From positions 5,208,001 to 5,272,000 of the forward strand of contig NZ_PJMW01000002.1 of NCBI RefSeq assembly GCF_002846365.1: 64,000 bases of DNA, given 5' to 3'. This DNA is from Nocardia fluminea. Its GTDB lineage: Bacteria > Actinomycetota > Actinomycetes > Mycobacteriales > Mycobacteriaceae. The notes beneath the pieces are model-generated. The model ran no database searches, was not told where the DNA came from, and worked only from the letters and a program-made list of their open reading frames with translations. The position numbers and the translations under genes were made by a program. Positions 5,011 through 21,778 of the stretch are shown one piece after another. Within the stretch, counting starts at the first letter, position 1. Each line of letters begins with the position of its first letter.

Positions 5011-5145
5011 CGGACTCCTTCTTCGCGCTTCCGGGAGAGATGCCTCGCAGCGTATGAATGATCGGCATCGGTCAACAAGGACCTCCCAGCCCTCTGAAGT
5101 GTGCTGACAGCACATCCCCGCACGCTCAGGGTTTCGTCGACGCGG

Positions 5146-6396: not shown

Positions 6397-6444
6397 CCTA
6401 GCCTCGGCCGATTTGCTTCGGCCGACCGTTCGCGATCGATGAGC

Positions 6445-7125
6445 TCATCGGTTCAGGACCGCGAGGTCGAGTCCGTAGGTGTGGGCGTGGCTGGTCAGTC
6501 GGGCGAGGAGGCGCAAGGCATCAGCAGTGCCGCTGACAACGGCCTTCGGTTTGCCGGTCTGCTCGCCGGAGAGGGTTCGGAACACCTCTTCGGATGTTCC
6601 CTCGATTGTCACCTCGGCCGGCGCGGGCGCGCCTGACAGTACCGTCCGTACACCGTGCTCGTCGGCGGTGAGCAACAGGTTGTCGCCGTCGGCGATGATC
6701 GATGCTGTCAGCGTGGGGAATTCGGCGCCGTCGGCCATCTCCGTGCGATCCGGATAGAGGGCCATGATGGCGAACACCAGCCAGCGGCCCCGGCTGTGGT
6801 CACCCTCGGCGCCGGGCGTCAGCAGCGGCACGCCCCATCGCGCGAGCCCCACCAGCACGCTCTGAAGCCCGCGCCCCCATTCGGTAAGCGCGTAAACCCG
6901 CGCCGATACCGGCGCGGGCTTCACCGCCGAGGTCACCACGCCGGCTTCCTCGAGGGTTCGCAGGCGTTGCGCCAGCAGATTCGTCGCGATACCCGGCAAC
7001 GATTTCTGCAGGTCCGAATACCTGCTCGGAGCGATCAAGAGCTCGCGAATCACCAGCATGGTCCAACGATCTCCGACCACGTCCAACGCTCGCGCCAGGG
7101 CGCAGAACTCGCCGTACGATTTCAT
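6445..7125 (-). CDS. HxlR-family regulator with a C-terminal sterol-carrier-like domain
   Basis: A 226-residue protein. Residues about 10-100 form the HxlR winged helix (DVVGDRWTMLVIRELLIAP and LAQRLRTLEEAGVV). The C-terminal half (about 125-226) resembles the SCP2/sterol-carrier fold attached to many actinobacterial HxlR proteins and may bind a small lipophilic ligand. It is divergent from a 14-segment MFS exporter gene, with only 54 bases between the two starts, which is the usual arrangement for a local repressor of an efflux pump. An inverted repeat lies in that gap. Confidence 0.85.
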   Translation of the reverse strand: MKSYGEFCALARALDVVGDRWTMLVIRELLIAPSRYSDLQKSLPGIATNLLAQRLRTLEEAGVVTSAVKPAPVSARVYALTEWGRGLQSVLVGLARWGVPLLTPGAEGDHSRGRWLVFAIMALYPDRTEMADGAEFPTLTASIIADGDNLLLTADEHGVRTVLSGAPAPAEVTIEGTSEEVFRTLSGEQTGKPKAVVSGTADALRLLARLTSHAHTYGLDLAVLNR

Positions 7126-7138
7126 GCCCCCGAGCCTA

Positions 7139-7155
7139 CACTTGACAAACGAGTG
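7139..7155. promoter_or_regulatory. Candidate HxlR operator over the MFS promoter
   Basis: The imperfect palindrome CACTTGACAAACGAGTG lies in the 54-base gap between the HxlR and MFS genes. It contains a perfect TTGACA -35 hexamer (7142-7147) directed at the MFS gene, so a bound regulator would block that promoter. The -10 element is weak (AATACT at 7167). Confidence 0.4.
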
Positions 7156-7179
7156 CTGTTGCTTGAAATACTAAAGCAC

Positions 7180-8709
7180 GTGACGCTCCTCGATACTCGC
7201 CCTCGGACCTCGCGCACCGTGGTCCTAGCTGTGCTGTGCCTGGCCACCTTGACCATCAGCCTCGCCACAACGGCGATCAACGTGACGTTGCCGTCCCTCG
7301 CTGTGGAACTCAACGCCGATAACCGCGATCTGCAGTGGATCGTCGATGCCTACAACCTGCTGTTCGCGACGTTCGTCCTGGCTTTCGGCAGTCTCAGCGA
7401 CCGCTACGGCCGCAAAGGCGCTCTGCTCACCGGTCTGGCAATCTTCGGAGGCGGCGCGGTCGGCGCCTCGCTGGCGGAGAGTTCCGCGCAACTGATCGGC
7501 TGGCAGGCGGTGATGGGGCTCGGCGCCGCGTTCGTCTACCCCACCACGCTGTCGATCCTGTCCAACGTCTTCACCGACCGCGCCGACCGTGCGAAAGCCA
7601 TCGGCATCTGGGGCGCCACCACCGGAGTCGGCGTGGCGTGCGGTCCTATCCTCGGCGGATGGCTGCTCGAATCCTTCTGGTGGGGCAGCGTCTTTCTCGC
7701 GCTCGCGCTCGCGGCGGCCGTCTCGATCATCGCGGCGAGCAGGGTGGTCACCACATCACGCGACCCGCAGACACCACGCATCGACTACGGCGGGTTGGCG
7801 CTGTCCGTACTCGCTGTCGGCGGCCTGGTCTACACCGTCATCGAGGCACCCGAACACGGGTGGATCAGTGCTGTGACCCTCGGTGGTTTCACGATCTCGC
7901 TCGCACTGTTCGTCACGCTGGTGTTCTGGGAGCGCGGCCGCGCCGAACCCATGATCGACGTCACGCTGTTCAAGAACATGCGTTTCACCGCCGCCAGCGC
8001 CTCGGTGACGTTCGCCTATTTCGCCCTGTTCGGGTTCATCTTCCTCATTACGCAGTATTTCCAATTGGTGCGCGGCGACGGCCCGCTCGAGACCGGCCTC
8101 GAGTTCATCCCCGTGGCGACATCGATCGCGGTGGGATCACTGCTCGGCACACTGCTGGCGGTGCGCTTGGGCAACAAGCTGGTCGTCGCGACCGGAATGC
8201 TCTTGTTCACCACCGCGTTCCTCTGGATCGCGACACTGAGCGAGTCGACCAGCTACCTCGAAATCGCAGGACAGATGATCCCACTCGGACTCGGATTGGG
8301 CCTGACCGCCGCACCCGCGACGGAAGCCATCATGGGCGCGGTACCACTGAACAAGGCGGGCATCGGCTCGGCGATGAACGATGCGACCCGCGAAGTAGGT
8401 GGCACAGTGGGCGTCGCCGTGATCGGCAGTGTCTACGCCTCGCTCTACGCGTCGACGCTGCGTGATTCTCCTGCGGCACAACAGTTGCCCGCAGAGGTGA
8501 AGTCGGTGGTCGAACAGTCGGTCGGCGCGGCGGCAACCGCTGCTCACCAGTTCGCCGCGGCCGGTGATGCGCAGAGCGCGCAAACAGTCTCGCAAACGGC
8601 AAACAGTGCGTTCCTCGACGGACTCGCGGCGGGCTCGTATGTCGCAGCGGGTGTCACCGCGGTCGGCGCGGTCATCGCCTTCCTTTTCCTTCCCGCGAAG
8701 CCGCAGTGA
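7180..8709 (+). CDS. DHA2-family MFS multidrug exporter
   Basis: About 509 residues with some 14 hydrophobic segments, as expected for the EmrB/QacA (DHA2) group. It carries the loop 2-3 motif GSLSDRYGRKG and the motif C-like GATTGVGVACGPILGG of drug/proton antiporters. The GTG at 7180 is chosen because the protein then begins directly before the first membrane segment; the open frame runs much further upstream over the divergent regulator, but that part is not plausible protein. Expected role: proton-driven export of a toxic or signalling compound, under control of the adjacent HxlR protein. Confidence 0.87.
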   Translation: MTLLDTRPRTSRTVVLAVLCLATLTISLATTAINVTLPSLAVELNADNRDLQWIVDAYNLLFATFVLAFGSLSDRYGRKGALLTGLAIFGGGAVGASLAESSAQLIGWQAVMGLGAAFVYPTTLSILSNVFTDRADRAKAIGIWGATTGVGVACGPILGGWLLESFWWGSVFLALALAAAVSIIAASRVVTTSRDPQTPRIDYGGLALSVLAVGGLVYTVIEAPEHGWISAVTLGGFTISLALFVTLVFWERGRAEPMIDVTLFKNMRFTAASASVTFAYFALFGFIFLITQYFQLVRGDGPLETGLEFIPVATSIAVGSLLGTLLAVRLGNKLVVATGMLLFTTAFLWIATLSESTSYLEIAGQMIPLGLGLGLTAAPATEAIMGAVPLNKAGIGSAMNDATREVGGTVGVAVIGSVYASLYASTLRDSPAAQQLPAEVKSVVEQSVGAAATAAHQFAAAGDAQSAQTVSQTANSAFLDGLAAGSYVAAGVTAVGAVIAFLFLPAKPQ

Positions 8710-8777
8710 TTCTCGCCGCGCGCACCGGTTTGCCGACCGCTGCCTCGGAGCAGACTCACCCGAACGACTGGGCTTCA

Positions 8778-9137
8778 TCATCGTGGCGTGGCGGCACCTG
8801 CGGAAAGTATGGCCATGAGATCTTGCGGGATCGGCATCGGCGTGAACGCGCCGACATCGGTCCGGCCGGTGTTCCCGAGCGGCGCCCGCCCGGTCGCGGA
8901 CGCGATGCCGCCGAATGCGAGCCGAAGCACCTGGCCGGCGACTTCGCGCCGGTCGCGGCACCGGATCGCGAGCCGGAGCATCTCCCAGTGCGCACGAGTA
9001 TGCGGCCACGCCCATTCCTGCGAAAGGATGTGAGCTCGTTCGAGCGCGCGCCACATCTGATCGATATCGGTGGCCGAACGTGCGCGGGTCAGTTCGGCTT
9101 CGAACGCGGATCGGACGCCGGCGGGCATGCGGGACAC
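8778..9137 (-). CDS. DUF3703 family protein
   Basis: About 119 residues matching the DUF3703 pattern: WRALERAHILSQ, PHTRAHWEMLRLAIR, RREVAGQVLRLAFG and a PLGNTGRTDVGAFTPMPIP block near the C-terminus. The family has no known biochemical role. The GTG at 9137 is preferred because AGGAGG lies four bases before it; an ATG at 9128 is the alternative. The gene converges with the MFS exporter gene and follows the AraC gene on the same strand at a distance of about 70 bases. Confidence 0.8.
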   Translation of the reverse strand: MSRMPAGVRSAFEAELTRARSATDIDQMWRALERAHILSQEWAWPHTRAHWEMLRLAIRCRDRREVAGQVLRLAFGGIASATGRAPLGNTGRTDVGAFTPMPIPQDLMAILSAGAATPR

Positions 9138-9208
9138 GGGACCTCCTGAGTTGTCGTGGCTCCCTGTCAGCGTCGCAAGCCACGTCGGCGACTGCTTGAA
9201 CAAACCTG

Positions 9209-9940
9209 CTACGAGTCACCGAGTTCGTCCACCAATCGCAGCTGCCCGAACTGCGACGGTGCTGCGCCGAACATGCTGTGGCAGACGCGATTCAGGTGAG
9301 CACTGTCGGCGAATCCGGCACCGTGTGCCGCCTCGGTGAGGGTTCGTCCCGCAGCGAACAGCCGCATCGCGTGCTGCATCCGCAGCCAACGCACGTATGC
9401 GCGGAACGGAAGTCCCACTTCAGCCGAGAACAGGTGCGCCAGTCGGCTCTCCGACAGCCGCACCCGCCGGGCGAGTTCGCTGAGCCGCACCGGGCCGTCG
9501 GCAAGAAGCCCGGGCAAATCGGCCGTACAACGGCGCACCGCCGGATGCCAGGCGCCACGGTCGGGTTCGACCGCGCCGGCGACAATGGCCGCCATTCCGA
9601 TCGGGCCGGAGCTGAACATCGCCCCGTGACGCACCCAGACATCGACCACATCCGCGGGTTCGGGGCACAGTAGCGCCGCCACCGCCGCTTCGGGCGCCAG
9701 GTGGATCAATGTCGCCGAAGCAGCGCCCTCGACTACCCGGTGGCTGGTGTTCGGCGGAATCACCACCGCCTGGCAGCGTGCGATGACTCCCTGTGCGTCA
9801 CCGATACAGAACGCGGACTCGCTCTTCATGATCTGCACCGTGTGGTGCGCATGCAGTGCTGTGATCCCGACTTCACCGGTCAGCACCATCAACCCGGGCC
9901 GCAGCAGCATTGTCCCGGTCCACCCGGTCGCGCTGGTCAC
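9209..9940 (-). CDS. AraC-family transcriptional regulator
   Basis: A 243-residue protein with a cupin-like N-terminal sensor half (HAHHTVQIMKSE, VVIPPNTSHRVVEG) and a C-terminal AraC double helix-turn-helix (LSELARRVRLSESRLAHLF and LTEAAHGAGFADSAHLNRVC). It is divergent from the lanthipeptide cluster, with a 386-base gap, so a role in that cluster is possible but unproven. The DUF3703 gene follows it on the same strand and may be co-transcribed. Confidence 0.85.
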   Translation of the reverse strand: MTSATGWTGTMLLRPGLMVLTGEVGITALHAHHTVQIMKSESAFCIGDAQGVIARCQAVVIPPNTSHRVVEGAASATLIHLAPEAAVAALLCPEPADVVDVWVRHGAMFSSGPIGMAAIVAGAVEPDRGAWHPAVRRCTADLPGLLADGPVRLSELARRVRLSESRLAHLFSAEVGLPFRAYVRWLRMQHAMRLFAAGRTLTEAAHGAGFADSAHLNRVCHSMFGAAPSQFGQLRLVDELGDS

Positions 9941-10326
9941 GTGTTGTGGCCCGTTCGCGGTGCGGCTCGACTGGCCGGGTCGTCAACTGCGCGGTGCGTC
10001 GAGTGCTGCATGGTCGAAGTATCGCGATCCCACCGGTCATCAGCGGTGACGGGTAGGTGGCCACGGCGATCGTGTCGCCCGTTCGTGCACGATCAGCCGG
10101 ATCGCGGCGGCGGCGCTCCGCAGGCGCTCGGGGATAGGCAAACGGCCTTCTCGCGAATCCGGGCCGGGCGCGGAATCTACCGCGCGGCGATGGGGGTGGT
10201 CATCGCGGTGCGGTAGGGGAAAACCGCGACTGCGCACTGATTCGGAGAGGGGTGTGTGGCGGTCATTCTGGAGTTCGTTCGATCAACCGACGAACGGCTT
10301 CACTACCTGAGAAGGGTTGGACCGCA
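9941..10326. promoter_or_regulatory. Intergenic region before the lanthipeptide cluster
   Basis: This 386-base gap between the divergent AraC gene and the LanKC gene must hold the cluster promoter. No protein frame in it is convincing. An inverted repeat, CGTTCG and CGAACG separated by nine bases (10276-10296), lies 30 bases before the LanKC ATG and is a candidate site for the cluster's response regulator or the AraC protein. Confidence 0.4.
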
Positions 10327-12888
10327 ATGCTTCACGACGCCGCGTTCCTGCTCGCCGACCCCGACTACTTCCAGCCCGTCGAGCGCACCGATCCTGGTCG
10401 GCGATATGCCCCCACAGCGCCACCGGCTGGATGGGCGCGAGGGGAATCGGGGGTGTGGACCTATTGGCTGCCGCCCGAGGTGGTACTGCCCGATCAGGGC
10501 TGGAAGGTTCATGTCTCGAGTTCGCTGGACAACACCCATCTGGTGCTGGACATCGTGGCGGGCGTGTGCGGCGAGCTCGGGGTGCCGTTCAAACATCTGA
10601 CCGGGCGGACCTTCTTCGGGTGGTTGCACAGCAAGCACGGCAGTCGGGTGCAGAGCGGGAAATTCTGTGCGCTCTATCCGCCGACACCGCAGTGTGCGCA
10701 CGAGGTGCTGATGCGACTGGAACGTGAACTCGCCGGCATCGCCGGACCGTACGTGCTCACCGACCGCAGGTTCGGGAGCTCGCAGTGTGTGTCCTATCGG
10801 TTCGGTGCGTTCCGCCCGAGCTATCGGATGCAGGCCGACGGTTCCACGTCGCCCACGTTGCGGGGTGTCGACGGTACGGAGATCCCCGACGAGCGACGAC
10901 CCGAATTCTTTTTGCCCGCCGGGGTGGTGGATCCGTTCGCGCCGCCGCCGGAGCCGGTCGGCGACGAGTCCGAAATCAGCTTTCACGGCTACACCTTCGA
11001 GGCGGTCCTGCGCCACAGCAACGCGGGCGGTGCCTATCGGGCCCGTGACCTGGAGGGGGAAGCCTGTTTCGTCAAGGAGGCCCGCGGCCACAACGGGTAC
11101 GTCGGCGTGCAGGATGCGCGGCGACGTCTCGAGCAGGAGTACCTCACATTGCGCGCGCTGCACGCGGCGGCGCCCGGGCTGGCGCCGCGACCCGTGGAGT
11201 TGTTCACCGAGTGGGAGCACACCTATCTCGTCACCGAGTTCGTGCCGGGCCGAACGCTCACCAGCTGGATGGTCGCCACCACACCGCTGATCCACGCCGG
11301 TGCGGCCACGGCGACGATCGCCGACTACTACCGGCGCTGCCGCCACATTCTCGACCAGGTCACCGCGCAGATCGCCACCTTGCACCGGCTCGGCTACGCC
11401 TTCGTCGACATCAGCCCGGGCAACGTGCTCATCGCCGACGACGACACCGTACGTCTGATCGACGCGGAAGCCGTTCAGCGCCTGGATCATCCACTCGGAC
11501 TCCTGTCCACCCCGGGCTTCGTGCCGCCGGAGTTGCGGACGACTGAGGGGCGCTCGAAAGCCGACCCGCGCTACGTCGATGCCTACGGGTTGTCCGCCCT
11601 CGCGCAGATGCTGATCTTCCCGATGCACGAAGTGGCCGAGCGGTCACCGCAGTGCTTGGACCATCTTCTCGCCGACCTCACCGAACTGGCGGCACCACCG
11701 CGGCCGCTGTGGGACGCGGTCGTGCGCTATCGGGGCAGCGAACAAGGGCCGAGACTGCCGGACCCGGATGCTGTGCGCGCCGACCCGGTTACCGCGCTGC
11801 ACTGGCTGCGCGACCGCACCGCTGATGCGCTGGTTCAGACGTCCGAGCCGTACCCGTTCGGGCCGGAAGGACACCGGACCAATACGCGCGGTGTCGCCCA
11901 CGGCACCGCTGGCGTGCTGCATGCCTTGCGACTGGCGGGGCGCGCCATCGACCCGGCGGTGGTCACGCGATGGCGTGATGAATCCCTGGCCGCACGCGAC
12001 GACACCTGTCCCGGCCTGCTGTTCGGCAATGCCGGAATCGCCTGGGTCCTCGACGATCTCGGTGAACGCGAGGCCGGCTTGGCGCTACTCGCCGCCGCGA
12101 GCGCGCACCGGTTGAGTACCGAATCGGCCACCTGGGGCGGAGGCGCGGCCGGTGTTGCCATGGCGCAGTTGGCTTTTCACCATCGAACCGGTGACTTCGC
12201 CCACCTCGAACACGCCCACCGACTGCTCAGCGGGTTGCCCGAAAATCTGGCCCCCCTGCTGGGCGCCGACAACGCTTCCGGGCTGGTGCACGGCAGACCC
12301 GGAGTCGCGTTGGCGCTGTACTACCTGGCCGCGTTCACCGGCGAGCAGCACCACTTCGAGCGCGGGCTGCGACTGCTGCGCGACGAACTCGTCCACGCGG
12401 AGCCGATCCCGGTGGACGCCCTGGGTTTTCGCGCCTCGGAGCGCGACCTGCGCGTCATGCCCTACCTCGCATCCGGGAGCGCAGGCTATGCGCAGGTGCT
12501 GGCTCGGTATCTGAACAACTACGACGAGCCGGAGCTGGCGAACAGTCTGCGCGGTTGCCTGCGAGCACTGAGTATCCGATTCACAGCCGCACCCGGACTT
12601 TTTCACGGGCAAGCGGGAATGGCTCTGGTGCAGACGGATTCGGCAGTCCGTACCGGCGTTCCCGCCGATGCGAGGTCACGACTGACCGCACTGTTCAAGT
12701 ACGCGATTCCCGGCGAGACCGGAGTGCGTTGGCTCGGTGGACACGGTCAACGACTCAGTGCCGATCTGGCGACCGGATCCGCGGGTGTCCTACTGGCCTT
12801 GCAGCACGCCCTGACCGGCTTCCCTGATCCGTTGTTCACCCTCGACGCGGCCGTGCCTGCTCCGGCAGCCCAGCCCGTCGAGCGGTAG
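10327..12888 (+). CDS. lanKC: Class III lanthipeptide synthetase LanKC
   Basis: An 853-residue, three-part enzyme that matures the precursor encoded just downstream. Residues about 1-205 are the lyase-type part. Residues about 220-490 are a Ser/Thr-kinase-like domain with the ATP lysine in CFVKEARGH (K250), catalytic VDISPGNVL (D361, N366) and a DFG-like LIDAE (D379). Residues about 515-853 are LanC-like, with repeated G-x-AG helices (HGTAGVLHAL, VHGRPGVALAL, FHGQAGMALVQ). The LanC zinc ligands (Cys, Cys, His) are absent, which marks class III (RamC/AmfT/LabKC type) rather than class IV LanL. Known chemistry: phosphorylation of Ser/Thr, elimination, then ring closure. The ATG at 10327 is preferred over a GTG at 10252 because the protein then starts with the conserved ADPDYF region. 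Confidence 0.9.
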   Translation: MLHDAAFLLADPDYFQPVERTDPGRRYAPTAPPAGWARGESGVWTYWLPPEVVLPDQGWKVHVSSSLDNTHLVLDIVAGVCGELGVPFKHLTGRTFFGWLHSKHGSRVQSGKFCALYPPTPQCAHEVLMRLERELAGIAGPYVLTDRRFGSSQCVSYRFGAFRPSYRMQADGSTSPTLRGVDGTEIPDERRPEFFLPAGVVDPFAPPPEPVGDESEISFHGYTFEAVLRHSNAGGAYRARDLEGEACFVKEARGHNGYVGVQDARRRLEQEYLTLRALHAAAPGLAPRPVELFTEWEHTYLVTEFVPGRTLTSWMVATTPLIHAGAATATIADYYRRCRHILDQVTAQIATLHRLGYAFVDISPGNVLIADDDTVRLIDAEAVQRLDHPLGLLSTPGFVPPELRTTEGRSKADPRYVDAYGLSALAQMLIFPMHEVAERSPQCLDHLLADLTELAAPPRPLWDAVVRYRGSEQGPRLPDPDAVRADPVTALHWLRDRTADALVQTSEPYPFGPEGHRTNTRGVAHGTAGVLHALRLAGRAIDPAVVTRWRDESLAARDDTCPGLLFGNAGIAWVLDDLGEREAGLALLAAASAHRLSTESATWGGGAAGVAMAQLAFHHRTGDFAHLEHAHRLLSGLPENLAPLLGADNASGLVHGRPGVALALYYLAAFTGEQHHFERGLRLLRDELVHAEPIPVDALGFRASERDLRVMPYLASGSAGYAQVLARYLNNYDEPELANSLRGCLRALSIRFTAAPGLFHGQAGMALVQTDSAVRTGVPADARSRLTALFKYAIPGETGVRWLGGHGQRLSADLATGSAGVLLALQHALTGFPDPLFTLDAAVPAPAAQPVER

Positions 12889-12939
12889 TCGACCACCGGA
12901 CCACACATCCCACGACACACCCGGAAGGAGGTGAACATC

Positions 12940-13047
12940 ATGATCCAGATCCTGAAGCTGCAGGCGGAGACCGCCAAGAACGACGGCGAGGACGCCGGCT
13001 GGAGCACCCTCAGCATGCAGAACTGCACCAACGCCGTCGAGGCGTAG
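12940..13047 (+). CDS. lanA: Class III lanthipeptide precursor peptide LanA
   Basis: A 35-residue peptide behind a very strong AAGGAGGTG ribosome binding site (12925-12933), 51 bases after the LanKC stop. The leader carries ILKLQ at residues 4-8, the conserved class III recognition motif, followed by an acidic hydrophilic stretch. The core, WSTLSMQNCTNAVEA from residue 21, contains one Ser-x-x-Ser-x-x-x-Cys (S22, S25, C29), the pattern that becomes labionin in SapB, AmfS and labyrinthopeptin. T23 and T30 could also be dehydrated. There is one cysteine, hence at most one ring. The leader cleavage site is not evident, and no dedicated peptidase gene is nearby. The gene was too short for normal gene calling. 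Confidence 0.88.
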   Translation: MIQILKLQAETAKNDGEDAGWSTLSMQNCTNAVEA

Positions 13048-13062
13048 AGGCACGAAACATCC

Positions 13063-13096
13063 GCTGGGTGCGGGCCTGTCGAGGCCCGCACCCAGC
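13063..13096 (+). terminator. Strong hairpin after the precursor gene
   Basis: A perfect 15-base-pair stem (13063-13077 with 13082-13096) closes a GTCG loop, starting 16 bases after the precursor stop. There is no long T-run, so it probably acts as a partial terminator or mRNA stabiliser that keeps precursor mRNA more abundant than the downstream exporter and regulator mRNA. Confidence 0.7.
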
Positions 13097-13126
13097 GATT
13101 CTCCGCTATCCGGCAAGGAACCGACC

Positions 13127-14389
13127 ATGGGCGATCAACTCTCGACACGACAGATTTCGGATCTGCGGCGCTACACCGTCGCCCAGGTCGCCTCGACCGT
13201 CGGAAGCGCGCTGACCAGCACCACAGTCTCCGTGACCGCTGTCGCTGTCCTCGGAGCAGGGCCGCGCGAGGTGTCACTGGTGGTCGCCGCGTCGGCGGTG
13301 CCGCCACTGGTACTCGGACCTTTCGCCGGCGTGCTGCTCGACCGCGTGAGCCGGCCACGCCGGTTACTGATCCTCGCCGATCTGATCGCGGCCTCGGCGA
13401 TCGCGGTCTGTGCGGTGGCGGCGTTCGCCGGCGTACTGACCGTGACCACTCTGATCGGCCTGTCCCTGACCCTCGGGGCGACCGGGGTTGCGCGAGCGGG
13501 ACTGTACTTTTCGCACTTGAGCACGCTCGGCGTGCGCGATGTCAGCACCACACGAGCACGGCTGCAATCCCACTCGCTGCTCGCGCGCGCGGTCGGCGCC
13601 TCGGTGGCCGGGCCGTTGCTCACCGTCGCCGGCGCGGCGGTGATGTTCACCTGCGATGTGCTCACCTACCTGTTCAGCGCCTTGTGCCTCGCGGGCCTGT
13701 CGGCACCCGATCGCCGCGAGACCGCTCGACGAGGCGGCATCGCTCGCGAATTCGCCGACGGGGTACGTGTGCTGCGCGACTCGACGGTGCTGGCCGCTGT
13801 GGCGCTGTATCTGCTGATCGGCGGCGCCGCATCCGGCGGTGTGGCTGCCATGCGCGCGGTGTTCCTGCTCGACGACATACGAATCCCGGTATCCGCGTAC
13901 GGTATCCCCGCCGTTGCCGCTACCGTGTCCGCAGCTGTCGGCGCGCTTGCCGCCCCGCGCATCCTCACCGCCGGGATCTCGGCCGACCGAGTGCTGCGAG
14001 CGAGCGTCCTCGCCGCGGCGGTCTGCGCGCTCGCGCTACCCCTGACCACCGGGTCGCTGCCCCTCGCCCTGCTGATCGTGTGCGCGAGTACCGCACTGCC
14101 GACGTTCTTCGGCGCGATCATGAACATCGCCCTGATCACGGTGATGGGCACCGACGTGGGTGATCGCTACTTCGCGCGCGTGGGGGCACTGCTCGGCACC
14201 GGCACCACCGCGGCCAACCTGGTCGGCGCGCTACTCGGCGGCGTGCTGGGCGCGCACTTCGGCGTCCGCACCGGGATCTGGGTGTTCGTTCTCGCCGACC
14301 TGCTGGCCGCCGTCCCCTTCGCCTGGGCGATCGCCCGGCGTAGCTGTGCAGCGTCCGCGAGTTCGCGTAGGCAGACCGCGAAGGCATAG
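13127..14389 (+). CDS. MFS transporter of the lanthipeptide cluster
   Basis: A 420-residue protein with about 12 hydrophobic segments and the loop motif GVLLDRVSRPRR, as in MFS proteins of the MefA/DHA3-like type. It starts at ATG after an AAGGAA site. Its position between the precursor and the two-component system suggests export of, or self-protection from, the modified peptide. SapB-type clusters normally carry paired ABC exporters (RamA/RamB), so an MFS protein in this place is unusual. The transport substrate is inferred from context only. Confidence 0.83.
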   Translation: MGDQLSTRQISDLRRYTVAQVASTVGSALTSTTVSVTAVAVLGAGPREVSLVVAASAVPPLVLGPFAGVLLDRVSRPRRLLILADLIAASAIAVCAVAAFAGVLTVTTLIGLSLTLGATGVARAGLYFSHLSTLGVRDVSTTRARLQSHSLLARAVGASVAGPLLTVAGAAVMFTCDVLTYLFSALCLAGLSAPDRRETARRGGIAREFADGVRVLRDSTVLAAVALYLLIGGAASGGVAAMRAVFLLDDIRIPVSAYGIPAVAATVSAAVGALAAPRILTAGISADRVLRASVLAAAVCALALPLTTGSLPLALLIVCASTALPTFFGAIMNIALITVMGTDVGDRYFARVGALLGTGTTAANLVGALLGGVLGAHFGVRTGIWVFVLADLLAAVPFAWAIARRSCAASASSRRQTAKA

Positions 14390-14422
14390 CCCCGAATACC
14401 TTGTCGTGGGACACTTCTGCCC

Positions 14423-14875
14423 ATGACAGCACGCACTTTCGTAGTCGTGTACGCAGTGGACGAAGGTGGTGCCACCGGTCTGCCGGTCGGCAGGGCGACG
14501 CTGCTCGAGCGGGAATTCGCCCTCGCGCACCCGCCGTTGGCCGCGAGGCTCGCTGAGCGGGAAACGCCACTGCGGCTCGGAGTGTTCAGCGCCGTGCACG
14601 AATATGGCGAAGTGGTGGATGTCTCGGCGACGATTGTCGTGCCGGAAGCACCGGATATCGTGCTGCTCCAACTGGCAGAAATCTCGGCGGCACCGCCACG
14701 CGGGGTTCCGGTCACCCTCGTTGAGATCGACGGCGGGCTGGCCGAACCGACTCGCGACGACGTCATCGCGGCCGTGCGCACGGTACTCACCGACATCGCC
14801 GCCGCGACCCCGCCGCCGGCGATGTCGATCGGCAACCCACTGACCTGGGTGTGGAAGCTCCTCGGCGGTGGCTGA
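14423..14875 (+). CDS. Unknown protein of the lanthipeptide cluster
   Basis: A 150-residue protein that is not recognised. It has no signal peptide. It alternates beta-type hydrophobic stretches (TFVVVYAV, VSATIVVPEAPDIVLLQL, VPVTLVEIDGG) with charged turns and ends in a hydrophobic WVWKLLGGG tail. Its last eight bases overlap the start of the sensor kinase gene, which implies translational coupling and a shared role in signalling or immunity. No function is assigned. Confidence 0.65.
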   Translation: MTARTFVVVYAVDEGGATGLPVGRATLLEREFALAHPPLAARLAERETPLRLGVFSAVHEYGEVVDVSATIVVPEAPDIVLLQLAEISAAPPRGVPVTLVEIDGGLAEPTRDDVIAAVRTVLTDIAAATPPPAMSIGNPLTWVWKLLGGG

Positions 14876-16067
14876 ACTCAGCCCCGAGGCCACACCGCTA
14901 CGCCGCCTCGCCGACGTCGCACTGGTCGTCGCCGTCGGTGGTATCGATCTGGCGGCATGGGGTGGAGATCGTCAGCTCCTCGGCGGCGGTTCGTTACCGT
15001 TGTGGGTGGTGCCGACCGCGGCCGTCCTGCTGTGTACAACGCTGTTGGCGCGCGGACGTTTTCCGGTGACGGTGTGGGCGGTCGCCTGGTGTTTCACCGC
15101 GGTGAATATCGTTGTGCCGACGTATTTTCCGGTCGGGTATCTGCTCGTCGCCACTTTCGCGGCCGCCTGCCGGGTATCCGCACCCGCGGCTCGGCTTATC
15201 CTCGCCGGGTCCGCGCTTTCGCTCGGGCTGTTCACTTATCACAACCGGCTGGCCGGAGCCGCTGCGCCGGAACTGCGGCACTTCCTCGTCGCCGGGACGA
15301 TGTGGGCCTTGGCCCTCGGTGTCGCATGGGGTGTGGGCCGCCTGCTGTATCTGCGCGAGCACCGTGCTCTGGCGACGCAAGCGCGCCTGGCCGCCGACGC
15401 CGAGGCCGCGTTGATTGCGCAACGGCTGCGACTGGCGCACGAGCTGCACGACAGCGTGTCCGGTGCGGTGGCCGCGATGATCCTGCACGCCGCAGCCGCC
15501 CGCGCGTTCACTCCCGACGGTCATCCGAAGGTAGCCGAAGCCTTGGCGGTCATCGAAAACGCAGGGACACAGGCGATGAGCGAACTACACGACCTGCTCG
15601 GACTGTTACGCGCGCCCATCGAGGGCTCGCATGCGGCGCACGCCGGTCGCAGCGCACCGGCCACACTCGAGAGCCTGATCGAGCTGAATCGCGCGGGTGG
15701 GCTGCGTATTCGCCTCGACACCGACGGCACCCGTCCACCGAACGTCGACCCCGACATCGACCTGGCGGCCTACCGGCTCGTGCAGGAATCGCTGACCAAC
15801 GTCGCCAAACACGCCGGTGCCGGTGCGACCGTCGATATCAGTATCGGCTGGCGCCGCGCCAGTGTGACCGTCGCGGTGCGCAGTAGGGGCGGGAACGGCC
15901 CCGTCCCGCAGGTCGCTCGACTCTCCACGCACCAGGGCCTGGCCGGGCTCGCTCAAAGATTGCAAACACTGAGTGGCACAGTCGAATACGGTCCGGACGG
16001 CACCGGCTGGTCCGTGGTCTCGGAGATACCGTTGAATCCCGCCGGAATTCAGGAGAACGTGTCGTGA
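14868..16067 (+). CDS. NarL-type sensor histidine kinase
   Basis: A 399-residue membrane kinase. About five hydrophobic segments (residues 15-155) form the sensor part, with no large extracellular domain. A HisKA_3 phospho-acceptor region reads LAHELHDSVSGAVAAM, and a degenerate HATPase_c domain follows (AAYRLVQESLTNVAKHAGA, then HQGLAGLAQRLQTLSG). It overlaps the unknown protein gene upstream and, by four bases, the response regulator downstream, so the three are translated as a unit. A membrane-embedded sensor of this form could detect the lanthipeptide or envelope stress. Confidence 0.88.
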   Translation: MAELSPEATPLRRLADVALVVAVGGIDLAAWGGDRQLLGGGSLPLWVVPTAAVLLCTTLLARGRFPVTVWAVAWCFTAVNIVVPTYFPVGYLLVATFAAACRVSAPAARLILAGSALSLGLFTYHNRLAGAAAPELRHFLVAGTMWALALGVAWGVGRLLYLREHRALATQARLAADAEAALIAQRLRLAHELHDSVSGAVAAMILHAAAARAFTPDGHPKVAEALAVIENAGTQAMSELHDLLGLLRAPIEGSHAAHAGRSAPATLESLIELNRAGGLRIRLDTDGTRPPNVDPDIDLAAYRLVQESLTNVAKHAGAGATVDISIGWRRASVTVAVRSRGGNGPVPQVARLSTHQGLAGLAQRLQTLSGTVEYGPDGTGWSVVSEIPLNPAGIQENVS

Positions 16068-16711
16068 CGATCAGCGTGATCATCGCGGAGGACGAAGCCT
16101 TGGTGCGTGCCGGTGTCGTCTTGCTGCTCGGCGGCGTCCCCGGCATCGAGGTGGTGGGTGAGGCAAGCGACGGCACCACGGCGATCGAACTCGCCGCGGC
16201 CGTCCGGCCCGATGTGGTCCTGATGGACCTGCGCATGCCAGGGACCGACGGAATCAGTGCCACCCGCAAGATCTGCGAATCCATCGACGCGCCAGCGGTT
16301 CTCGTGCTCACTACCTTCAACGAACAGCAGGCCGTGCAACAAGCTCTTGCTGCGGGTGCCAGCGGATTTCTCCTCAAGCACGCCGCCCCCGCAGACCTCG
16401 CCGAGGCGATTCGCGCCTGCGCCGCGGGGGAGGGCTGGCTCGATCCCGCGGTGGTCAGCGGCGTCCTGACCGCACTGAGATCGGCTACCCCGCCCACCTC
16501 CGCTACACCAGGAACCGTGGCCGGACTGACCAACCGCGAGCGCGAGGTGCTGGTGTTGATGGCGATGGGATACGCGAACACCGAGATCAGCGCTCGCTTG
16601 TTCATCAGCGAAGCCACCACCCGCACCCACGTCTCGCACATCATCGCCAAAACCGGTTCTCGCGACCGCACCCAGGCGGTAGTGCTCGCCTACCGCAGCG
16701 GCCTGATGTAG
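16064..16711 (+). CDS. NarL/LuxR-type response regulator
   Basis: A 215-residue protein with a receiver domain (EDEALVRAGV, phospho-acceptor D55 in VVLMDLRMPG, conserved K in FLLKHAAP) and a C-terminal LuxR helix-turn-helix (LTNREREVLVLMAMGYANTEISARLF). It is the partner of the kinase encoded just upstream, with a GTGA start-stop overlap. Functionally it takes the place of the orphan regulator RamR in SapB clusters. The probable target is the cluster's own promoter. Confidence 0.9.
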   Translation: MTISVIIAEDEALVRAGVVLLLGGVPGIEVVGEASDGTTAIELAAAVRPDVVLMDLRMPGTDGISATRKICESIDAPAVLVLTTFNEQQAVQQALAAGASGFLLKHAAPADLAEAIRACAAGEGWLDPAVVSGVLTALRSATPPTSATPGTVAGLTNREREVLVLMAMGYANTEISARLFISEATTRTHVSHIIAKTGSRDRTQAVVLAYRSGLM

Positions 16712-16811: not shown

Positions 16812-17510
16812 TCATCGGAGACCGGGTTCGACGAAGCGTTCCACGATCAGCCGCTCACCGGCCGGATCCGGCAGCGGCCAGGCGAGTAGGGACATCACGA
16901 CCCGCACGATCCATTGAGCCGCCGCGTCATCGGGAAGGACTCCGGTGAGTGCGGAAGCGAATCTGCCGAGTTGGGGTGCGGCTGCGAGATAGCTGTCGGC
17001 GCGAGTCGCGCGGGAGCCGGCGTACCACTGGGCCAGGACGGGATTCGTCCGTACCGCGGCCACCGAGGCCAGGATCGCTTCCACGGTGCGGCGTGAGCCG
17101 TCGAACGGTTCGATGGCGATGGCGACCTCGCCCGCGACCGAGGCCGCGGCCCGCGCGATCACGCCGTCGACAATGGCCGCCTTTCCGCCTACATGCCGGT
17201 ACAGCGTCGCGCGCGAGCAACCCGCGCGTGCGGCGACGTCGTCCACGTTCACCGCCTCGATGCCTCGTTCGAGAATCAGTGCGGTGGCCGCGGCATGGAT
17301 CCGGTCGACTGCGACGTCGCGACGCCGGCCACCGGCGAGCCAATCGGGCCTGTCGTGATCCGCGATGGGGCACCTCCAGCACAGTGATACGGATTTCCGT
17401 GGGATCTCATTGTGAGACGAAATCTCCCAAACGTCTAGATGGGAAGTTCCGGAAATTGCCCGGTAACCAGCGTCGGCCGCCCGCGGAGCGAAAGCCGTTG
17501 AGACAGACAA
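16812..17510 (-). CDS. TetR-family regulator beside the P450 gene
   Basis: The TetR helix-turn-helix is VNVDDVAARAGCSRATLYRHVGGK; the C-terminal ligand domain follows. The frame opens at a TTG at 17510, but the first 50 or so codons do not look like TetR protein. A GGAGG site at about 17373-17378 points to a start near 17366, where the in-frame codon is ATC, so the true start is unclear. An inverted repeat (17405-17417) inside the supposed N-terminal extension also argues that the extension is intergenic. The gene is divergent from a cytochrome P450 gene and probably controls it. Confidence 0.75.
   Translation of the reverse strand: MSVSTAFAPRAADAGYRAISGTSHLDVWEISSHNEIPRKSVSLCWRCPIADHDRPDWLAGGRRRDVAVDRIHAAATALILERGIEAVNVDDVAARAGCSRATLYRHVGGKAAIVDGVIARAAASVAGEVAIAIEPFDGSRRTVEAILASVAAVRTNPVLAQWYAGSRATRADSYLAAAPQLGRFASALTGVLPDDAAAQWIVRVVMSLLAWPLPDPAGERLIVERFVEPGLR
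17405..17417. promoter_or_regulatory. Candidate TetR operator before the P450 gene
   Basis: The perfect inverted repeat TCTCA-TTG-TGAGA lies between the TetR helix-turn-helix region and the P450 start. It is short, and its assignment rests on position. Confidence 0.3.
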
Positions 17511-17608
17511 ACCAGCAGGTAGAGCCGGTAAATCTCAATACTGGGGTCGTTCTTGACATGTCGAATCTCGCCGTGGACGGTAGTGGCTGACTGGAACGCG
17601 TTCTACTG

Positions 17609-18847
17609 ATGAGCTGGGAGTTGCTGATGGGCGTCGCGCCGTTGGACACGATCGATATCTTCGATCCGGAGCACCTCGAGGACCCCTACGATCTGTATCG
17701 GTCGTTGCGCGAGACCGCACCGGTGCACCAGGTTCCCGGCACCGACTTCTACCTGGTTTCGACATGGAAGCTGGTGACCGAAGCTGTCTCGCGGACCGAG
17801 GACTTCTCGTCGAATCTGACCGGGGTGCTCGTGCGGCAACCCGAGGGTCCGCCCGCGACTTTCGACCTGGACGGCGGTGGACAGGCGGTGCATGTCTTGG
17901 CCACCGCCGACGATCCCACGCACCTGGCCCAGCGCAAGCTGGTGTTGCCGGTCCTGGGTAAGCGGATCCGGACCCTCGGCCCCACCGTGCGCGAGCTGGT
18001 CGATCGGCTGTGGTCGGAGCACCTGCGTGACGGGCGAATCGAGTGGGCAGGCGCGATGGCTGACCGGTTGCCGCTGGCGATGGTGGCGCATCTGATCGGG
18101 CTGCCCGACGAGGATGTGCCCCAGCTGCTCAGCTGGGCCTACGACAGCACCGAGATGCTGGGCGGCGTCGTCAGCGGGGAGCAGCTCGGCCGGCTGTTCA
18201 CCTCGGCGGCCGAACTCGCTCGATACCTGCACCACAAACTTCAAGACGCCCAGCGAGATCCCGACAACGATCTGCTCGGCGTGCTCGCGCAGGCCTGCAC
18301 TGCGGGCGAGATCGCCGAGGAGATCGCCGTCCTGGTCTTGGTGCAGCTGGTGGGCGCGGGTGGTGAGTCCACCGCCGGGCTGGTCGCCAGTGCGGCCCGC
18401 ATCCTGGCCACCCACCCGGAACTCCAGGAGCGGCTGCGCAGAGAGCCGAATCTCATCGCGCCGTTCCTCGAGGAGGTCCTGCGACTGGAATCCCCGTTCC
18501 GCGGCCACCACCGACACGTCACCGCCGCGACGACGCTCGGCGGAGTCGAGCTGCCGGCGGGCAGTCATCTGTTGCTGCTGTGGGGTGCGGCCAATCGCGA
18601 CCCCGACCACTTCGAGGTGCCGGACGAGGTGCGCATCGACCGCCAGGGAGTGACCCGCCATCTCGCCTTCGGCAAGGGCGCCCATTTCTGTCTCGGGTCG
18701 GCGCTGGCTCGGATGGAGGCGCTGGTCGCGATCACCACGCTGCTCGAACGCAGCAGCAACGTCACTCTCGTCGACGACGACCAGCCACGGTGGGTGCCGA
18801 GCATTTTCGTGCGCCGCCACCTCACCTTGCCGCTGCGTATCCACTGA
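17609..18847 (+). CDS. Cytochrome P450
   Basis: A 412-residue bacterial P450. The I-helix carries the oxygen-binding motif GAGGEST, the K-helix has ExxR (EEVLRLESPFRGH), and the heme loop is FGKGAHFCLGSALARM with C361 as heme ligand. The ATG at 17609 gives MSWELLMGV; the ATG at 17627 has a better-spaced GGGAG site and may be the true start. The substrate is unknown. Fragments of a ferredoxin reductase and an alcohol dehydrogenase lie immediately downstream, so this was probably part of a larger redox operon. Redox partners must now come from elsewhere. Confidence 0.9.
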   Translation: MSWELLMGVAPLDTIDIFDPEHLEDPYDLYRSLRETAPVHQVPGTDFYLVSTWKLVTEAVSRTEDFSSNLTGVLVRQPEGPPATFDLDGGGQAVHVLATADDPTHLAQRKLVLPVLGKRIRTLGPTVRELVDRLWSEHLRDGRIEWAGAMADRLPLAMVAHLIGLPDEDVPQLLSWAYDSTEMLGGVVSGEQLGRLFTSAAELARYLHHKLQDAQRDPDNDLLGVLAQACTAGEIAEEIAVLVLVQLVGAGGESTAGLVASAARILATHPELQERLRREPNLIAPFLEEVLRLESPFRGHHRHVTAATTLGGVELPAGSHLLLLWGAANRDPDHFEVPDEVRIDRQGVTRHLAFGKGAHFCLGSALARMEALVAITTLLERSSNVTLVDDDQPRWVPSIFVRRHLTLPLRIH

Positions 18848-18852
18848 CCTCG

Positions 18853-19116
18853 CCGGGCGAACGAGCGATCGTTATCGGCAACGGCAACGTGGCGTTGGAC
18901 ATCGTCAGGATCCTCGTCGCCGACCCCGAGGTACCGGCCCGCATTGACATCGCTGATCAAGCCCTGGAAGCGTTGCAGCACAGCTGCATTCGCGAAATAT
19001 TCGTGCTCGGTCGACGTCGGGTTGAGGCGTGGGGTGTCTGTCATACCGACCTCACCTATCGCGAAGGCGGGATCAACGAAGAGTTTCATGTCGGGGTAGG
19101 GGTACTTTCAGGGTAA
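18853..19116 (+). pseudogene. Fused remnant of a FprA-type reductase and a zinc alcohol dehydrogenase
   Basis: Directly after the P450 gene, one frame reads GERAIVIGNGNVALDIV and then DIADQALEAL and FVLGRRR. This is the NADP-binding middle of a FprA-type ferredoxin-NADP reductase. At about 19020 it changes without a stop into VEAWGVCHTDLTYREGGINEEF, the N-terminal zinc-binding region of a class III/mycothiol-type alcohol dehydrogenase, and is lost at 19116. Neither piece has its own start or the rest of its gene. This is best explained by a deletion joining two former neighbours. Confidence 0.75.
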
Positions 19117-19289
19117 AGTTCCGGGTCTTTCCGGAATACGGAGACCGAAACCTGTTGCTACGGTCCGTGCATGAACCGCGATGCCTGCTTTCCGACAACG
19201 AATTCTGGTACGCGTGGATCGTTGTCAACGTCGAGATCGAAGCGAAGACGAGTAGGCGAGGATTCTGTCGCCAGAGCTGGCGGGCAGTC

Positions 19290-20150
19290 ATGACGACAGT
19301 CCGCGCACGCGGCAGTACTACCGGATCGAATTTCATCGAAGTCGCGTGGTTCTTCGCGATCTCCATCGCGCTGTGCTTCGCGCTGTCCGTTCCGATGGTC
19401 TTTCGGCTGGTCTCCACGGACTTCAACAACCTGATCGTTCCGATCCTGCAAACGACCCCGCTGCTCGCTGCGATCATCATGTGGCTCGCCCGACGACCCG
19501 GAACGTTCCGAGACATCTTCGCCACCGGGTGGCGCGGCACACCCGAGTGGGCAGGCATCGGTATCGGCCTCATCGCCGCGATCGCCGCTGTCCAGGCCTG
19601 CATCGCACTGGCATGGGGGATTTGGCCGCTCAACCCGTTCGACCAGATCTTGGCGGCGACAGTATGGGTCGTTCCGGTCTTCCTCCTGCAGTCGGTCTTC
19701 GCTATCGGAGAGGAGTTCGGCTGGCGTGGCTGGCTGGCGACCCGCGCCGCGGCGTGGGGATTCTGGCCGCTGGCCCTTGTCAGCGGTGTGGTCTGGATCG
19801 TCTGGCACCTGCCGGTGATTGCCGTCATCGAAGACCGATCACCGTGGAATATCGTCGTCTATTTCGCGGGCATGCTGCCGTGGGCGCCGCTGCTGCTAGC
19901 ACTCCGGTGGCGGTCGGGGAGTGTCTGGCCGGCAGTCTTCACGCACGGAGCGATCAACAGCGTCCGGGTGTACCTGCTGCAGTCGGTCCCGGATGCGACA
20001 GAGCATCTGCTCATCGAAGTGATCGGCTGGGTGCTGACGTTCGTCGCTGCGCTGTGGCTGATGCGCACGAGCCCGGCGCCGGTCGTCCGGAGCGCCGCTG
20101 CAGCTCGCGCACTTCCCCGTGGTCGGAAGGTCAAATCCTGTCAAGCCTGA
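19290..20150 (+). CDS. CPBP-family intramembrane glutamic protease
   Basis: A 286-residue membrane protein with about eight hydrophobic segments. It carries the CPBP/ABI motifs: EEFGWRGW (glutamate pair and arginine), WHLPVI and HGAINS, with the catalytic Glu and His residues present. The family includes CAAX prenyl proteases and bacteriocin-immunity proteins. The ATG at 19290 is preferred over an upstream start at 19029, which would run through the alcohol dehydrogenase remnant. It is convergent with the LLM oxidoreductase gene. The substrate is unknown; immunity or envelope processing roles are both possible. Confidence 0.83.
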   Translation: MTTVRARGSTTGSNFIEVAWFFAISIALCFALSVPMVFRLVSTDFNNLIVPILQTTPLLAAIIMWLARRPGTFRDIFATGWRGTPEWAGIGIGLIAAIAAVQACIALAWGIWPLNPFDQILAATVWVVPVFLLQSVFAIGEEFGWRGWLATRAAAWGFWPLALVSGVVWIVWHLPVIAVIEDRSPWNIVVYFAGMLPWAPLLLALRWRSGSVWPAVFTHGAINSVRVYLLQSVPDATEHLLIEVIGWVLTFVAALWLMRTSPAPVVRSAAAARALPRGRKVKSCQA

Positions 20151-20208
20151 AGGCTCAACACCGCGGTGCGAACCCCTTGCCGGCATTCCGATCGCGAGTC
20201 GACAGCAG

Positions 20209-21120
20209 TTATCGGCGGGCTAGTTCGCCCAGTAGGGCGATGGTGCGATGGTGGTCGGCTGGGCCTGTGAGGTCGGTGGTGGTGAGGACGACTTCGGTGG
20301 CGCCTGCGTCGAAGTAGCGGTGGATGCCCGCGGCGACGGTTTCCTCGTCGCCGATCAGTGCCAGATCGGCTGCTCTGGTAGCTCCTTCGAGTTCGATGAC
20401 TCGGCGATAGGACGGGATCTGTTCGTAGAATGCCAACTGCTGCAGCGCTTTCGCACGGGCCGCCTCGGCATCGGCGGTGACGACGGCGGGCACGAAGGCG
20501 ACGATGCGCGGGGGAGTGGTTGTCGCGCGGGTGATTTCGGGAACGATGTGTTCGCTCAGAGTTTTGGGCCCGGCCAGGTAGGGCAGGGTTCCGTCGGCGA
20601 GTTCGCCGGTCACCCGCAGCGCTTGCGGACCCATGGCAGCCACCAGCACTGGAATCCGTGGTTCGGCGCCGGGAACCGAGGTCGGTAGCGCTGGGGTGGT
20701 GGTGAACAGTTCGCCGTGGACGTTGGCGGTGCCGGTGTCGAGTAGCTGCCGCAGCGCGGTGAGGAACTCGCGCAACCGGGTGATGGGCCGATCGAACGGC
20801 TGGCCGAAGGCGCCGGCGGACAACGTGGAGCCGACCGCGAGTCCGAGGTGATAGCGGCCGTGAGTGGCGGCCTGGGCGGTCTGTGCCTGCGACGAGATGA
20901 GCAGTGGATGCCGCCCGGTTACCGGAATGGCGGAGGTACCGACCTGTAACGCGGGTACCTCGCGCCCGACGATCGCAGCGAGTGTCGGGGAGTCGTAGTC
21001 CATTCGCTGCCCGAACCACACCGCGGGTACGCCCTGTTCGGCGACGTGCCGGGCTTGCCCGACGATGTCGTCGACATAGTTGGTGGCGTTTTCGACGGCA
21101 AGCGCGATTCCAAGGGTCAT
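20209..21120 (-). CDS. LLM-class F420-dependent oxidoreductase
   Basis: A 303-residue TIM-barrel protein of the luciferase-like monooxygenase family, of the type that usually uses coenzyme F420 in actinobacteria (TIGR03564-like). Recognisable segments include VPAVWFGQRMDYDSPT near the N-terminus, GRYHLGLAVGS in the cofactor region, and a C-terminal FDAGATEVVLTTTD block. The substrate is unknown. The gene is probably monocistronic. Confidence 0.85.
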   Translation of the reverse strand: MTLGIALAVENATNYVDDIVGQARHVAEQGVPAVWFGQRMDYDSPTLAAIVGREVPALQVGTSAIPVTGRHPLLISSQAQTAQAATHGRYHLGLAVGSTLSAGAFGQPFDRPITRLREFLTALRQLLDTGTANVHGELFTTTPALPTSVPGAEPRIPVLVAAMGPQALRVTGELADGTLPYLAGPKTLSEHIVPEITRATTTPPRIVAFVPAVVTADAEAARAKALQQLAFYEQIPSYRRVIELEGATRAADLALIGDEETVAAGIHRYFDAGATEVVLTTTDLTGPADHHRTIALLGELARR

Positions 21121-21343
21121 GCTCGGTCCAACCGCGCCCTCTGGCGCTTGTGTTCCAGGATGCCGCTATCTGATCGCAGTGATCGAAATCGGGGTAACCC
21201 CGCTCGATGCCGAGCCGACAGAGTCTTTGCCGAGCGCCGGGCTGATCAGTCCGCCCCGAACCTGACCGTGGCACGCCGACCTGGCGACGAAGACACCGAT
21301 ATCGCGCCGACCAAGCCACGGAGCCCTATGGCGAGTTTGTCGT

Positions 21344-21697
21344 TCAGCGGGGGAGCGATCGACGTAGAGCAGCCAAGGTGTTGCCGGTCCGATAGAGCTC
21401 GATGAGGAGTGGACGCAGTACCCGGCCGAGGTCGGTGAGGGTGTAGCTCGTGCGTACAGGGAAGCCGGGGTGCGTGCGTCGCGCGATCAGCCCGCGGGCT
21501 TCGAGATCGCGAAGGCGGTCGGTCAGCACTTTGGCGCTGAGCGAGGGCAACCGGTCCCGTAACTCGCCGAACGAGAGCGGCCCACCCATGAGTTCGCGCA
21601 AGACCAGGGTTGTCCAGCGGCCGGAGATGGCAGTCAGCGTGACCTCGACGGGGCAGTCCGGTTCCGGTGCGCTGGTTCGCCCGCGCTCGTCGGGCAC
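21344..21697 (-). CDS. HxlR-family transcriptional regulator
   Basis: A winged-helix HxlR protein: AISGRWTTLVLRELMGGPLSF, LSAKVLTDRLRDLEARGLI and SYTLTDLGRVLRPLL. A GTG at 21697 gives 117 residues. An ATG at 21787 would add 30 residues but overlap the start of the divergent SnoaL gene and translate the 12-base tandem repeat, so it is less likely. It probably represses the divergent SnoaL-like gene. Confidence 0.8.
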   Translation of the reverse strand: MPDERGRTSAPEPDCPVEVTLTAISGRWTTLVLRELMGGPLSFGELRDRLPSLSAKVLTDRLRDLEARGLIARRTHPGFPVRTSYTLTDLGRVLRPLLIELYRTGNTLAALRRSLPR

Positions 21698-21716
21698 CAG
21701 CTCGTCGTCCCAGACT

Positions 21717-21740
21717 GTGTCGGTTACCGTGTCGGTTACC
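21717..21740. repeat. Tandem 12-base repeat between HxlR and SnoaL genes
   Basis: Two exact copies of GTGTCGGTTACC stand head to tail, followed by a degenerate third copy (21741-21751). The block lies in the divergent promoter region and is a candidate operator for the HxlR protein. Confidence 0.5.
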
Positions 21741-21778
21741 GTTTGGTTGCCTACGCGCGGGCCGAGTTGGCTGTCGCT

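Follow-up and report, generated by a model that had tools for sequence, protein, structure and literature searches.

In class III lanthipeptide clusters of the SapB/AmfS type (ram/amf), the exporter is encoded by ABC-type genes and the response regulator has no partner kinase. Here we describe a class III lanthipeptide cluster in a 64,000-nucleotide stretch of the Nocardia fluminea genome (contig NZ_PJMW01000002.1, positions 5,208,001 to 5,272,000 of the forward strand; hereafter "the window"), in which a lanthionine synthetase (LanKC) and a precursor peptide are encoded together with a major facilitator superfamily (MFS) transporter, a 150-residue protein that we call U150, and a histidine kinase/response regulator pair. 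We consider it likely that this cluster is a self-regulated operon for a single-ring peptide.

The durhapeptin cluster (PMC13380574), a close described system of the SapB/AmfS type, shares with the window a LanKC, a small precursor with an SxxSxxxC motif, and a regulator. In the parts of that paper covered here, it has an ABC-domain gene, a lone response regulator and two tandem core motifs, whereas the window has one motif, an MFS gene, a kinase/regulator pair and U150; the contrast with the SapB type drawn in an earlier, sequence-only reading of this DNA was thus a fair one. The noursin/nor-like clusters (LanKC-Hbt; PMC10206099, in part) resemble the window in being class III, with a one-Cys core and a transporter gene. 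They differ in encoding an S9 peptidase within the cluster and in forming a histidinobutyrine ring, for which a His in the core is required. The window precursor contains no His, and because its core lacks this residue we rejected histidinobutyrine for the window peptide. Bacinapeptins and paenithopeptins (PMC8960859) also have one S-x2-S-x(2-5)-C motif per precursor, and the bcn leader protease is encoded outside the cluster; they differ in their Firmicutes origin, a methyltransferase gene and an M16B protease pair, and the covered parts of that paper mention neither a kinase/regulator pair nor U150. In the literature covered here, only a few class III peptides with one ring motif have been characterised: noursin, bacinapeptins, paenithopeptins and lipolanthines.

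Within Nocardia, three single-Cys peptides with an SxxSxHHC motif were noted in N. brasiliensis in 2024 (PMC11251773). That paper lists peptides near LanC domains, and its covered parts make no mention of an operator, MFS gene, U150 or kinase pair. Precursors with SSYSEHHC, which occur in the N. brasiliensis-type clusters considered below, fit these single-Cys peptides; unlike them, the cores of the window's branch are STLSMQNC-like and lack the HH.

A six-gene class III lanthipeptide cluster in N. fluminea

Six co-directional genes with intact open reading frames span positions 10327-16711 on the + strand, with the content given in the sequence-only reading:

10327..12888, + strand: LanKC, class III lanthionine synthetase (lyase-kinase-cyclase), 853 aa; above the cut-off of NCBIfam NF038151
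12940..13047, + strand: precursor peptide, 35 aa, MIQILKLQAETAKNDGEDAGWSTLSMQNCTNAVEA; translated, with homologous copies in N. salmonicida and N. alba
13127..14389, + strand: MFS transporter, 420 aa, presumed peptide exporter; Pfam MFS_3 2.2e-16, MFS_1 7.7e-16
14423..14875, + strand: U150, a Nocardia family of unknown function, 150 aa; predicted fold like the first beta-barrel of the trypsin fold
14868..16067, + strand: histidine kinase (HisKA_3 type), GTG start; Pfam HisKA_3 1.2e-11
16064..16711, + strand: response regulator with receiver and LuxR-type DNA-binding domains, GTG start; Pfam Response_reg 1e-25, GerE 6e-16

The U150 and kinase genes overlap by 8 bases, and the kinase and regulator genes by 4 bases.

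LanKC scores 662 bits against NF038151 ("class III lanthionine synthetase LanKC"; cut-off 575), fails the class IV model (345 bits; cut-off 650), and contains the Pfam domains RamC_N, Pkinase and LANC_like. We compared it with ThurKC, a solved class III enzyme whose residue roles are described in the covered parts of PMC10604976, in an alignment read by eye and with an inferred offset of 3 between chain and paper numbering. LanKC keeps K60, H62, K89, K103, K112, D146, R158, R190, K250, E271, D379 and E381 at the places of ThurKC's lyase and kinase residues. At the zinc-ligand places, ThurKC Ser726, Phe770 and Asp771 correspond by eye to Ala715, Phe759 and His760 of LanKC; the cyclase has no full Cys-Cys-His zinc site, with both Cys absent, as in class III, and the His present. 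LanKC is 94% identical to its N. salmonicida counterpart and 91% to that of N. alba. The 8.06-Mb genome holds no second LanKC, the sole other match being a 32% identical kinase-domain stretch. Judged by its family match and kept residues, LanKC is a class III synthetase and the cluster a class III cluster, as had been proposed.

The precursor gene fits this assignment. Its start codon lies 8 bases downstream of GGAAGGAGG, and the peptide has an LxLQ-type leader motif, ILKLQ, followed by a single SxxSxxxC core motif, STLSMQNC. No peptidase is encoded among the six genes, and no S9 peptidase gene was found among these and ten flanking genes scanned. The sequence-only reading had counted the missing peptidase as unusual; the absence itself holds, but actinobacterial class III clusters usually lack a protease gene (PMC7268733 and PMC10885120, in the parts covered).

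The cluster is a constant unit in a Nocardia branch of LanKC

We surveyed 148 Nocardia genomes for LanKC-like matches at a threshold of E 1e-30. Such matches occur in 26 genomes, of which 15 hold a full-length LanKC at ≥65% identity and the other 11 reach 30-35% only. MFS transporter, U150, kinase and regulator genes stand at the cluster in all 15 carriers of this LanKC (14 fetched loci and the window), and between LanKC and the MFS gene each of the 15 has 1-6 short genes whose products contain an [ST]xxS...C motif, in most cases with a single Cys. This recurrence in 15/148 genomes argues that the six-gene set did not come together by chance. In a tree of 40 LanKC sequences (33 of 43 loci, six further Nocardia loci and the window), the 12 sampled Nocardia sequences, including the window's, form one clade (100/100) that is sister to 7 rows from other actinobacteria. 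With its constant accessory set, this Nocardia-only clade bears out the suggestion of a distinct branch of class III clusters. Two arrangements occur within it. In the window, N. salmonicida and N. alba, the U150-kinase-regulator genes follow the MFS gene in the same direction, while in the other 12 genomes this module lies upstream of LanKC and is divergent.

Comparing gene order beyond this constant unit yielded precedents for two genes that had been taken as unusual. Four loci have an MFS gene as the next one after LanKC: Streptoalloteichus hindustanus (L019), Saccharothrix tamanrassetensis (L028), Saccharopolyspora ipomoeae (L037) and Kitasatospora (L041). A kinase/regulator pair directly precedes LanKC in Cellulomonas (L020), Xylanimicrobium (L035) and Microbacterium (L040), with the kinase confirmed by Pfam in L020 and L035 only. 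We therefore rejected the MFS exporter as a mark of novelty, along with the missing peptidase, both being precedented in other class III loci, and the full two-component system is not unusual in itself either. The three loci with a kinase/regulator pair are like the window in having it beside LanKC, but their LanKC is remote (28-32% identical) and they contain no U150 match. In L028, whose LanKC is 33% identical to the window's, an S9 peptidase gene comes after the MFS gene; S. tamanrassetensis is the species of the noursin-like tam cluster (PMC10206099, in part).

A locus from Winogradskya, L033, offers a further layout. It has six near-identical LxLQ-type precursors (e.g. APWSSISLFNCS) beside LanKC at 11536-12320, together with an MFS gene and genes labelled ABC and S9-like by motif; locus L034 is alike.

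The U150-kinase-regulator genes might instead be a module in its own right, sensing envelope state or stress, which the lanthipeptide genes captured and which does not respond to the peptide, a possibility that we take seriously but consider the less probable one. U150 occurs in 18 of the 148 genomes, and three of these (G063, G092 and G124) hold U150 and an adjacent kinase gene (3/3) in the absence of this LanKC, with a regulator found in 2/3; moreover, the place and direction of the module relative to LanKC differ between the two clades. Against such a capture, 15 of the 18 U150 genomes carry the cluster (Fisher p 6e-18 for co-occurrence with this LanKC) and the module adjoins it in all 15. 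The three exceptions could also be remnants: in G092 (L089, 9039-10850) U150 and the kinase are present but no response regulator was recognised within the 19-kb stretch, and the U150 of G124 aligns only from residue 61-62 onward.

A kinase/regulator pair and a conserved upstream site

Hydropathy places several membrane segments within residues 11-157 of the kinase and gives no sign of a large outer domain; its signal may therefore arise in the membrane or close to it. Its phospho-accepting residue, His194, is invariant in 15/15 aligned sequences (the alignment holds 15 of 18 kinases), and the receiver residues D55, T83 and K105 of the response regulator are invariant in 8/8 (8 of 17 regulators).

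By aligning the regions upstream of LanKC from 14/15 clusters (all but L082), we identified a candidate regulatory site:

10177..10216, no strand assigned: putative operator CTAC-N6-GCGATG-N8-CATCGC-N6-GTAG, 110 bp ahead of the LanKC start

Of the 40 positions, 28 are palindromic, and all 15 clusters match 17-20 of the 20 specified positions. Across the 8.06-Mb genome, the pattern occurs once without mismatch and at three further places with 3 mismatches, against one place for the reversed-pattern control. With at most 1 mismatch, the site is found in 12/15 cluster genomes versus 0/133 other Nocardia (p 3e-15), and with at most 2 mismatches in 14/15 versus 12/133 (p 9e-12); the remaining cluster genome, G066, has 3 mismatches. 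The site precedes LanKC in both gene arrangements, from where it could drive both LanKC and the signalling module. A sigma-70 promoter scan gave no match. We infer that the cluster's response regulator may bind the 40-bp site.

The reading that we favor would then run as follows. LanKC would bind the precursor through its ILKLQ leader, phosphorylate core Ser/Thr residues and carry out their elimination, and one ring would form at SxxSxxxC, either labionin (S22, S25, C29) or lanthionine. A protease encoded elsewhere would remove the leader, possibly one of M1 type (the N. fluminea genome has four M1-family matches elsewhere), and the MFS protein would export the peptide. If cleaved ahead of Gly20, the core would have a calculated neutral mass of 1674.71 after loss of two waters or 1656.70 after loss of three. 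Kinase and regulator would switch transcription from the 40-bp site, with U150 as an accessory; as the signalling genes belong to this operon, or in other Nocardia are read divergently from the region that holds the site, the switch could act on its own genes too.

Several observations weigh against this reading. The precursor scores below the cut-offs of both NCBIfam class III precursor models (19/30 bits and 16.5/22 bits), although it is conserved in relatives, and adjacency of the MFS gene need not make its product the exporter. The kinase's HATPase_c match, at 22 bits, falls under the Pfam cut-off of 26.4. The nucleotide box of histidine kinases usually has an Asp, which the "V-x-S-x-G-G"-like stretch seems to lack in all 15 aligned kinases. 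The 12/133 matches in non-cluster genomes at 2 mismatches are close to the level of the reversed-pattern control (11/148), and therefore look like background. Finally, the 40-bp site was not found at the three LanKC-less U150/kinase loci, where the best matches (14-15/20) are at the chance level of other loci and the U150 upstream regions contain no match to the core of the site. The site thus follows LanKC and not the regulator alone.

This last pattern suits an alternative in which the 40-bp site belongs to another regulator and the cluster's pair controls other genes, e.g. for export or immunity. We think this unlikely: the conserved set includes no DNA-binding protein other than the response regulator, and the single perfect copy in the genome argues that this is not a general regulon site.

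A single precursor resembling a collapsed array

In the proposed operon of the window, the precursor gene stands alone, while relatives carry 2-6 copies overall and N. salmonicida and N. alba three each. Exceptions to the common form among these copies are one with an extra Cys in L079, two with a longer S-to-C gap in L087 and one with a longer core in L085. The 52 bases upstream of the window precursor are nearest to those of copy 1 in the two near relatives (46/55 and 43/54 alignment columns identical, versus 31-35 of 58-60 for copies 2 and 3), whereas its last 38 coding bases equal copy 3 in both (38/38; other copies 25-28) and its core is identical to the copy 3 core of both. On the simplest reading, the window's single precursor looks like the product of a collapse of three copies through recombination between copies 1 and 3. 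That this lone, apparently fused precursor marks a decaying cluster whose useful product is no longer made is quite improbable, as none of the six frames is interrupted, the catalytic residues inspected in LanKC are retained, the 40-bp site is perfect, and the remaining core is the same as that of copy 3 in each relative.

Copies 1 and 2 at L003 (11613-11866) and L004 (11612-11866), which the window lacks, have cores ending C-T-N/H-G/V-H-E-M. The Thr three residues ahead of the His is reminiscent of the Thr-His crosslink of noursin, without being evidence for one.

Immediately ahead of the MFS gene, the 12 N. brasiliensis-type clusters (L077-L088) contain a second, divergent precursor-like gene (e.g. 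L077, 11317-11433). Its product, near MENQNMVALATMxTDDDLIDDAPISVFSVVYCDDAYFG, has no LxLQ leader; the gene is intact in 11/12 and has a broken reading frame in L080. Its last 24 bases are DNA-identical in 12/12 and, at ≤1 mismatch, absent from the other 136 of the 148 genomes, that of the window included.

Folding of positions 13045-13130 (minimum free energy -43.4 kcal/mol, z -4.87) revealed one further element between the precursor and MFS genes:

13062..13097, + strand: GC-rich hairpin with a 16-bp stem and a 4-base loop

In the window and the two near relatives, 16, 15 and 14 of the 16 stem positions pair, leaving one and two unpaired in the relatives, and compensatory differences (T-A versus C-G) occur in N. 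salmonicida and N. alba. Like hairpins follow the last LxLQ-type precursor in all 8 N. brasiliensis-type loci folded (of 12). The hairpin is terminator-like on the - strand only, and is presumed to be a transcript-stabilising or partial-terminator element.

U150 is predicted to resemble half of a trypsin fold

U150 has no match in Pfam or NCBIfam, and its profile has none among solved structures up to E 10; 20 U150 members gave a single chance-level match to Pfam (E 0.35). A protein search found relatives in Nocardia and others, including metagenome-derived sequences. Fold prediction assigns the N-terminal two thirds to the first barrel of the trypsin (S1) fold, and a divergent relative, P0037 (32% identical), is predicted in the same direction more weakly. 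Compared with S1 proteases, U150 is predicted to lack the second barrel, hence any carrier for the catalytic Ser, and to have no His-Asp-Ser triad; judged by eye without a residue-level structural alignment, Pro occupies the place of the catalytic His and D/E that of the Asp. In hhalign, the U150 alignment (made without L082 and L091) matched alignments of PF13365 and PF00089 members with probabilities of 0.1 and 0.2%, so the trypsin link comes from the fold prediction.

In the reading that we favor, U150 would be an accessory, probably a cytosolic one. A bolder and rather speculative idea is that it is a catalytically dead half-trypsin serving as a peptide-binding subunit of the kinase, which would grip the lanthipeptide or its leader in the cell and report to the kinase. 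In such a three-part switch, the lanthipeptide would control its own operon via one genome-unique operator.

Extent of the cluster and neighboring genes

We compared eleven window genes flanking the cluster (3004-9910 and 16815-22183) with 22 Nocardia loci from 17 genomes by tblastn. They do not lie beside the cluster in relatives: only remote matches were found (26.9-40% identical, 5/22 loci), with no sign of a shared flank, and the conserved unit therefore seems to be the six genes plus the upstream site. Downstream of the cluster (16812-20150), the window contains genes for a TetR-type regulator, a cytochrome P450 and a CAAX-type protease, none of them found beside the cluster in relatives:

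19167-20150: CAAX-type protease gene

Because this protease gene does not adjoin the cluster in the 22 Nocardia loci, we rejected it as a cluster part. In a look for signs of mobility, two flanking genes were compared with the genomes of both near relatives. The AraC-type gene matched at 40% in N. salmonicida but had no match in N. alba; the P450 matched in both at 60-63%, on contigs other than the cluster's.

Significance of the cluster

In the literature on class III lanthipeptides with Nocardia, MFS or two-component systems, we did not find this cluster described; supplementary tables lay outside the scope of this search, and an earlier automatic listing of these precursors is likely. The same search turned up no publication on the control of class III clusters by a kinase/regulator pair. 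The kind of pathway and the N. brasiliensis precursors are already in print; what we did not find there is the whole unit of precursor array, MFS gene, U150-kinase-regulator genes and upstream site.

The cluster is a small, complete test system, with one synthetase, a 35-aa precursor, an exporter, a kinase/regulator pair and a well-defined candidate operator. It poses a testable question: does the peptide act on its own operon by way of U150 and the kinase? If U150 turned out to be a half-trypsin adaptor of the kinase, a protease fold would have been put to an unusual new use in bacterial signaling.

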